Positions 22,247-23,248 of a stretch of DNA of 64,000 bases are shown one piece after another. The stretch is from NCBI RefSeq assembly GCF_021412625.1, contig NZ_JAKCFI010000011.1:62001-126000 (forward strand). The letters are read 5' to 3'. The first letter of the stretch is position 1. Every line of letters starts with the position of its first letter. Under the pieces are notes generated by a model that ran no database searches, was not told the DNA's origin, and saw only the letters and a program-made list of their open reading frames with translations. The translations under genes were made by a program, and so were the position numbers. The stretch comes from Myxococcus stipitatus. GTDB taxonomy: Bacteria; Myxococcota; Myxococcia; Myxococcales; Myxococcaceae.

Positions 22247-23248
22247 ATGAGTTCGGTGCTCGACGTGGTGCTGGAAGTGGGCGACGTGACGGCGACGGCC
22301 GCGGACGTCGTGCTGTTCAAGTACGCGCAGCAGCTCTACGGCGCGTCGGGGCAGGCGATGGCGAGGTTGGGGGCGGAGGGGCAGGGGGTGGCGCCGCTCG
22401 AGCTGAGGCCGGGAGAGGTGCGCTTCGTGGAGACCCAGGGGGCGCTGGGGGCGCCGCTGGCGCTCTTCGTCGGGACGGTGCGGCTGGGGGACTTCGGCTA
22501 CCACGAGATCCGCCAGTTCTCCCTGCGCGCGCTCCAGGCGCTCGAGTCCCGTCCCGGGGTGAAGCACGTGGCGGGCACGCTCCATGGCCCCAACTACGGC
22601 CTGGACGAGGACGAGGCCGCGCTCGCCTTCGTGGGCGGACTGGTCGATGCGTTCCAGCGAGGCATCGGCCCTCGGAGCCTGGAGCGCTTCACGGTGGTGG
22701 AGGTGAACGCGCGCCGCGCCGCGCGGCTGCGCAAGGCGCTGGAGCAGGGGCTGGGCGGGACGCCGGGCGTGAAGGCGCTGCCGGACGGCGGTGGCTTCCG
22801 GGTGCAGCGGATGAACGCGTTCGTCCAGGCGCCGCCGCTGGCCACCGCGGGCATCGTGTCCATGGACAAGCCCCACGCCTTCGTGGCGATGCCCTTCAGC
22901 CCGGAGCTCGAGGACACGTTCCACTACGGCATCCTCGGGCCGGTGAAGGCGGCGGGGCTGTTGTGCGAGCGCGTGGACCAGGCCGTGTTCGACGGGCCCA
23001 TCATCCAGCGCATCAAGGAGCGCATCGACAGCGCCAAGGTCGTCATCGCGGACCTGTCGATGGCCAACCCCAACGTGTACCTGGAGGTCGGCTACGCGTG
23101 GGGACGCGGGCGGCCCACGTTGCTGCTGGTGCGCGACGTGCGGGAGCTGCGCTTCGACGTCGCGTCGTACCGCTGCATCGTCTACCGCAGCATCCGCGAG
23201 CTGGAGACGTCGTTGACGCGGGAGCTGGCGCGGCTGCTCGGCGCCTGA
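22247..23248 (+). CDS. Macro-like/TIR-like nucleotide-signalling protein
   Basis: This 333-residue protein has two parts. Residues 1-165 resemble the macro-type fold at the front of M17 aminopeptidases, with alternating strands and helices (LALFVGTVRLGDFGYHEI, KHVAGTLHGPNYGLDEDEAALAFVGGL). Residues 205-333 form a domain of the TIR/nucleoside-deoxyribosyltransferase superfamily: FVAMPFSPELEDTF at 212, IKERIDSAKVVIADLS at 256-271, then NPNVYLEVGYAWGRGRP with Glu280 at the catalytic-glutamate position. Such domains cleave NAD or nucleotides, or bind signalling nucleotides, in several immune systems. The combination of a possible ADP-ribose-binding module with a nucleotide hydrolase is suggestive but unproven. 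I chose ATG 22247 (GAGGGTG before it); ATG 22214 is possible. Confidence 0.75.
   Translation: MSSVLDVVLEVGDVTATAADVVLFKYAQQLYGASGQAMARLGAEGQGVAPLELRPGEVRFVETQGALGAPLALFVGTVRLGDFGYHEIRQFSLRALQALESRPGVKHVAGTLHGPNYGLDEDEAALAFVGGLVDAFQRGIGPRSLERFTVVEVNARRAARLRKALEQGLGGTPGVKALPDGGGFRVQRMNAFVQAPPLATAGIVSMDKPHAFVAMPFSPELEDTFHYGILGPVKAAGLLCERVDQAVFDGPIIQRIKERIDSAKVVIADLSMANPNVYLEVGYAWGRGRPTLLLVRDVRELRFDVASYRCIVYRSIRELETSLTRELARLLGA

Follow-up and report, generated by a model that had tools for sequence, protein, structure and literature searches.

A macro-like domain joined to a DNPH1/TIR-superfamily domain in Myxococcus stipitatus: a predicted nucleotide-handling module found joined to caspase, CHAT and TIR effectors in other genomes

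Results

Gene and selection

The gene described here, found in a 64,000-nucleotide stretch of Myxococcus stipitatus DNA (the window), encodes a protein in which a macro-like domain is predicted to be followed by a domain of the DNPH1/NDT/TIR superfamily. We lean, at slightly better than even confidence, towards the view that this pair is a two-domain nucleotide-handling module, acting as a signal module in immune proteins and kept as a stand-alone gene in the Myxococcaceae. This view is favoured because, in fusions with effectors, the pair stands where a sensor would, while the site of its C-terminal domain looks like a working one.

The ORF is intact, from an ATG at 22247 to a stop codon ending at 23248. 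The start listed by the ORF program, 22214, lies 11 codons upstream, and 22247 was preferred because the aligned relatives begin at the same Met. The gene and its domains are located as follows:

22247..23248, + strand: whole gene, macro-like plus DNPH1/TIR-like protein of 333 aa (ORF and translation; start Met shared by relatives)
22250..22771, + strand: N-terminal macro/M17-N-like domain, residues 2–175 (AlphaFold2 model; VIA matches)
22862..23239, + strand: C-terminal DNPH1/NDT/TIR-superfamily domain, residues 206–331 (VIA matches of the whole model and of the domain alone)

Pairwise NG86 comparisons with nine relatives gave dN/dS values of 0.25–0.46 for the N-terminal part (residues 1–180) and 0.13–0.30 for the C-terminal part (residues 206–333), which indicates purifying selection on both halves. 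When compared with 22 Myxococcota relatives, the N-domain was 35–90% and the C-domain 59–94% identical. A scan for a sigma-70 promoter and a terminator found none.

Predicted folds

The full-length AlphaFold2 model, built from an alignment of 23 sequences, had a mean pLDDT of 86.0 and a pTM of 0.85, and its top Foldseek match was the macro domain pair of PARP14 (3vfq, E 9.5e-9). When compared with VIA-align, residues 5–194 superposed on the N-domain of the Pseudomonas putida leucine aminopeptidase (3h8f_A; Z 16.7, 164 aligned residues, 2.6 Å) and residues 3–180 on the ADP-ribose-bound macro domain 2 of PARP9 (9qyf; Z 16.6, 171 aligned, 2.9 Å), so in the model the M17-N and macro matches are tied. 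The resemblance of the N-terminus to the macro-type domain of M17 aminopeptidases, proposed in the initial annotation, was thus upheld, and PF02789 (Peptidase_M17_N) was also weakly matched by 7 of the 35 relatives, at best with E 0.0037.

The same annotation had seen a TIR/deoxyribosyltransferase-like C-domain in which Glu280 occupies the catalytic position, and AlphaFold2 and VIA agree with it, as the predicted fold is of the DNPH1/NDT/TIR kind and not one outside the TIR/NDT superfamily. In the full model, residues 206–331 matched human DNPH1 (8rps_B) with Z 16.8 over 121 aligned residues at 2.0 Å. Modelled alone from 35 sequences (pLDDT 88.8), the C-domain matched by VIA DNPH1 (Z 16.6), MilB (14.3), a deoxyribosyltransferase (13.7) and the TIR domains of plant RPS4 and of SPARTA (13.2 each); with Foldseek, Chroococcidiopsis NDTs were best (E 9.0e-7), and SPARTA TIR (3.5e-4) and SARM1 (3.9e-4) were matched too. 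In the model, Glu280 sits in a helix (residues 275–286) that follows the domain's third strand.

Sequence-family membership

The protein matches PF05014 with E 8.6e-6 and 26.3 bits, under the Pfam cut-off of 28.8 bits, and the PADLOC "Effector TIR" model with E 2.2e-13 over residues 244–316. It matched no NCBIfam family, and neither of the canonical TIR families PF01582 and PF13676 in Pfam at E ≤ 10. Among the 35 relatives scanned against Pfam, PF05014 was found in all, PF10137 (CAP12/Pycsar TIR) in seven (best 0.0085) and PF01661 (macro) in none at E ≤ 1. The protein has no M17 peptidase domain, its C-terminus being of the TIR/NDT superfamily. PDB sequence searches gave MilB as the best match of the C-domain, matches below threshold for the N-domain profile (best 0.24) and a best value of 0.041 for the whole-pair profile. 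No single model in Pfam, NCBIfam or PADLOC spans the macro plus DNPH1-like pair, and no published description of it was found in a search of mainly open-access literature.

Candidate active site of the C-domain

Three elements of the C-domain define its candidate site:

22880..22882, + strand: Phe212, at the position of DNPH1 Tyr24 and Chroococcidiopsis NDT Tyr7 (offset of aligned structural ranges)
22967..22978, + strand: E241-R242-x-D244 motif after strand 2 of the C-domain (conservation in 35 sequences)
23066..23086, + strand: N274-P-N-V-Y-L-E280, with the predicted catalytic Glu280 (aligned to the MilB Glu region; conservation)

The motifs FVAMPF and NPNVYLEVGY, pointed out in the initial annotation together with Glu280, were confirmed in the translation at residues 212–217 and 274–283, with Glu280 inside the latter. 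Residue conservation was assessed across many phyla, in 35 sequences of the module, and F212, D223, R242, D244, N274, N276, Y278 and E280 were present in all of them, W285 in 34 and E241 in 33. Because ANPNVYLE served as the peptide pattern of the public scan, the invariance of residues 273–280 is biased. In a pattern-independent set of 17 C-domain copies found by profile, the Glu was present in 16, the remaining one (L200) carrying Gly, and in the copies whose earlier positions could be aligned, R242, D244 and F212 were each kept in 15 of 16.

At position 256, 24 residues before the Glu, where DNPH1 has D80, the 35 sequences carry I, V, M or T and in no case Asp, which was also absent from the equivalent position in the 17 wider relatives. 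With the Asp of NDT/DNPH1 missing, the site therefore comes down to one Glu, like that of TIRs. Both the Tyr and the Asp are present in L158, a bona fide PF05014 protein encoded in a different genome of the genus (G012). Phe212 also aligns, by structural ranges, on residue 17 of MilB, which we take to be a phenylalanine.

In the part of Shi et al. (2024, PMC11204291) that deals with this position, NADase TIRs are said to have usually Phe or Ala where NDT/DNPH1 have Tyr, the Tyr going with 2'-deoxy specificity. By this rule, Phe212 therefore predicts a ribonucleotide (NAD+-like) N-glycosidase, and the replacement of the NDT/DNPH1 tyrosine would fit the idea of a NADase. The C-domain is thus predicted to combine a DNPH1-like fold with a site like that of TIR NADases, its predicted substrate being a ribonucleotide such as NAD+.

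Candidate sites of the N-domain

Two stretches of the N-domain were located by profile alignment to the macro protein 2dx6:

22304..22330, + strand: loop-1 region, residues 20–28 (D20, K25-Y-A-Q28), in the place of the macro NAAN motif
22583..22618, + strand: H113-G114...G118-L-D-E121...A124, in the place of the macro phosphate-binding loop (aligned to GTGVGGLP of 2dx6)

In this alignment, KYAQ (residues 25–28) falls on NAAN and HGxxxGLDExEA on the phosphate loop, so that, as judged from the sequence, the phosphate-loop stretch appears retained and the Asn motif replaced. Conservation among the relatives is high in both places: K25 is kept in 34 and D20 in 33 of the 35, G114, L119, D120 and E121 in all, and H113 in 32. 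The N-domain may have lost ADP-ribose binding, because KYAQ stands in place of NAAN and PF01661 is not matched.

For the GLDE motif, a Lys/Asp chemistry of the TARG1 kind was weighed and dropped, as the profile alignment to 2dx6 gave no clear equivalent of the Asp site. A copy with the N-domain alone (L182 4867–5487, genome G1312) has GLQL where GLDE is otherwise invariant.

Genomic context of relatives outside Myxococcota

Of the 80 loci retained from the public scan, 40 (L112–L150 and L152) were non-myxobacterial and carried all or part of the pair. The first residues of the ORFs were inspected for these 40 loci, and 18 proteins or protein parts were scanned against Pfam. In four of the loci, the pair was fused behind an effector domain: a Peptidase_C14 caspase in Methanosarcina (L112), where an EACC1 gene lies upstream (6.9e-5, just under the cut-off), a CHAT domain in Methanothrix (L124), and TIR domains in two Saprospiraceae (L133 and L138, the front of the latter judged by sequence similarity alone). 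The TIR of L133 matches PADLOC ThsB with 4.4e-58, and also the TIR of SAVED_TIR. SAVED, the partner of TIR in the latter, is a ligand sensor. Two NAD-cleaving domains in one chain would be redundant, which argues that at least in the TIR-fused members the module senses rather than cleaves.

In another four loci, conflict genes adjoin the pair: a SIR2_2+TIR_2 gene and an nSTAND1+WD40 gene in a Chlorobiaceae member (L120), a DUF4062 protein in Planctomycetaceae (L116), a helicase-nuclease matching Hhe with 3.3e-169 in Bryobacterales (L115) and a TIR_2 gene in Lamprocystis (L149). Fused or adjacent conflict genes thus amount to 8 of 40 loci, a raw count with no control set, and nothing clear was found beside the pair in the remaining 32. 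When the caspase and CHAT fusions were used in a PDB sequence search for a solved type IV Thoeris receptor, they matched MilB-type entries and a CHAT protein only.

DUF4062, a distant TIR/NDT-type domain, is reported as a NADase in the relevant part of a 2026 preprint (PMC13174449), and DRHyd, TIR, caspase and macro domains are listed among the parts of conflict systems in the corresponding sections of Kaur et al. (2020, PMC7159879) and of a 2021 eLife paper (PMC8195603), sections that hold no description of the macro plus DNPH1-like pair.

In Lamprocystis, two transposase-like ORFs (assigned by eye) separate the N-domain and C-domain ORFs (L149 3313–5459), the TIR gene lying downstream.

Distribution and neighbourhood in Myxococcota

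Matches were found in 68 of 195 genomes of the phylum, 61 of which carry the full pair in one piece (by row count). Within the genus, the full pair is present in 25 of 27 genomes, G019 having none and G023 only fragments; in the latter, short gene pieces lie within about 290 bases near the start of contig C131 (L071), through either decay or an assembly fault. By contrast with the near-core status of the gene in its own genus, it is a rare accessory elsewhere: in a sample around a Bacteroidota genome, 3 of 296 genomes carried the full pair, counting the central one, and one of the three (G259) had stops, while samples from other phyla gave 1/292, 1/251, 1/196 and 1/199, each single match being the genome at the centre of the sample. 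No close relatives were confirmed in viral contigs. A tree groups Myxococcota with the four fused forms and with L123 and L125 at only 82/79 support, and no weight is placed on this grouping.

In the window, a styrene-monooxygenase-like FAD protein is encoded on one side of the gene and an Ala_racemase_N/D-Ser dehydratase protein on the other; these neighbours are metabolic and lie on the opposite strand. Within the window the gene does sit alone, as first described, with no sensor or defence gene beside it. No ThsA/ThsB partner of a Thoeris system was found among the four neighbours scanned. The window neighbours recur in just 3 of 10 target-bearing loci (L044, L045 and L048 among L043–L052), so no functional partner can be named.

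Discussion

Comparison with known systems

The C-domain shares its fold and catalytic Glu with DNPH1/RCL and the NDTs (PF05014), from which the protein differs in the Phe replacing Tyr24/Tyr7, the lack of an Asp80 equivalent, the Pfam score below the cut-off and the added macro-like domain. With the TIR NADases (the CAP12/Pycsar TIR PF10137, SPARTA TIR, ThsB and DUF4062 (Swarozyc)) it has in common the superfamily, the single catalytic Glu, the Phe at the discriminating position and the immune context of relatives; however, its C-domain is nearer DNPH1 than TIR (Z 16.6 vs. 13.2) and PF01582/PF13676 are absent. The CMP N-glycosidases MilB and BcmB resemble it in fold, Glu and ribonucleotide substrate (predicted here), whereas they have no macro partner and stand in a different context. 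Macro domains (PF01661), including that of the type II Thoeris TM-macro ThsA, are alike in fold, phosphate-loop position and link to TIR-type signalling, and differ in that here KYAQ replaces NAAN, Pfam gives no match and the partner is a TIR-superfamily domain, not TM helices. The N-domain of M17 leucine aminopeptidase (PF02789) is similar in fold and by weak profile match, but no peptidase domain follows it here.

The strongest comparison for the fusions of the pair is with SIR2-SLOG ThsA, TIR-SAVED and SAVED-CHAT proteins, in which a nucleotide-binding half gates a killer half; these and the type IV Thoeris caspase likewise join an effector to a nucleotide-sensing half. In the present case, the second half is macro plus DNPH1-like, and two of the fusions gave no known sensor in PDB sequence searches. 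The link to Thoeris lies in the TIR of the L133 relative, which alone matches a ThsB profile.

Proposed mechanism and alternatives

In the mechanism that we propose, the C-domain would use Glu280 to act on a ribonucleotide at its N-glycosidic bond, with NAD+ or an NAD-derived signal as the likeliest substrate, and the macro-like domain is predicted to bind an ADP-ribose-type substrate or product. As the C-terminal half of caspase, CHAT or TIR effectors, the pair would most likely sense or process a nucleotide signal that gates the effector. The single-copy, stand-alone gene of the Myxococcaceae would most likely be an enzyme domesticated to produce or remove a signal of this kind, because no effector is attached to it and no partner gene accompanies it there. 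In favour of the module as a whole, we counted the folds, Glu280 in 35/35 and 16/17 sequences, Phe212, the missing Asp, the reported NADase activity of DUF4062, the fusions and neighbours, and the near-universal presence in the genus against a sparse one elsewhere; against it, KYAQ in the place of NAAN, conflict genes at only 8 of 40 loci, the redundancy of two NAD-cleaving domains in the TIR fusions and the lack of a conserved partner of the Myxococcus gene.

The main rival, to which we give about one chance in four, is a pure sensor: with no catalysis in either domain, the two would together make up a binding site for a nucleotide signal, of the ADP-ribose type or another, and the free-standing protein would serve as a sponge or adaptor. 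The place of the pair in the fusions, behind the caspase, CHAT or TIR effector, speaks for it, as do the SLOG sensors placed in the same clade in the part of PMC9503650 on these domains and the loss of the NDT/DNPH1 Asp in all 35 sequences; yet Glu280, R242, D244 and F212 are invariant in those same sequences, with Glu in 16 of 17 wider relatives, a conservation seemingly beyond the needs of a binding pocket. It is rather improbable that the protein is a metabolic ribonucleotide N-glycosidase of the MilB type, acting on CMP or some other nucleotide, its macro-like domain having lost the binding of ligands, as in M17 peptidases, and without an immune role in Myxococcus. MilB being the top PDB sequence match of the C-domain (VIA Z 14.3), the tie of the N-domain with M17 N-domains and the near-core pattern with metabolic neighbours in the Myxococcaceae point that way, but not the fusions to caspase, CHAT and ThsB-like TIR domains elsewhere. 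Very unlikely is a DNPH1/NDT-like enzyme for 2'-deoxynucleotide sanitation, in spite of DNPH1 being the top structural match (Z 16.6–16.8), as the Tyr24 equivalent is Phe in 35/35 sequences, the Asp80 equivalent is Asp in 0/35 and the PF05014 score is under the cut-off.

If the signal-processing module holds true, the macro fold, with its ADP-ribose handling, and the TIR/NDT superfamily would be linked in one chain that plugs into three kinds of cell-death effector, the switching of those effectors by an NAD-derived signal would become testable, and an immune signalling module would have turned into a near-core gene of social bacteria. A bolder version, which we hold only tentatively and as a whole, is that the pair is a nucleotide-signal switch complete in itself and so far unrecognised, which has been built into caspase, CHAT and TIR effectors in bacteria and archaea alike and serves in the Myxococcaceae as a near-core, stand-alone eraser or maker of the signal; such a switch would join SLOG, TM-macro and the type IV Thoeris receptor as another type of receptor for NAD signals.

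Related architectures

Weak matches to the N-domain (E 2.4e-6 to 6.9e-4) also occurred, with this C-domain absent, in proteins of 1139–1163 aa from four genomes of the family (G141–G144). Three of these long proteins (L039 2163–5555 in G144, L040 1882–5370 in G142 and L041 1960–5424 in G141) have an alpha/beta-hydrolase-like region, a macro/M17-N-like stretch and a C-terminal CHAT domain; in L039, the only one of the three scanned against Pfam, the CHAT domain and sub-threshold alpha/beta-hydrolase matches were found. A protein resembling the M17 aminopeptidase N-domain, with no peptidase domain, was recognised by eye on the minus strand of L042 (1219–2238, G150). As for the C-domain, the same type stands behind a front half that by eye resembles restriction endonucleases at L189 (3151–3945) and L030 (1072–1908), and bona fide PF05014 domains are C-terminal at L159 (565–1896, contig C21 of the M. 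stipitatus genome itself, G000) and at L158 (G012), behind a front that by eye resembles PfkB-type sugar kinases.
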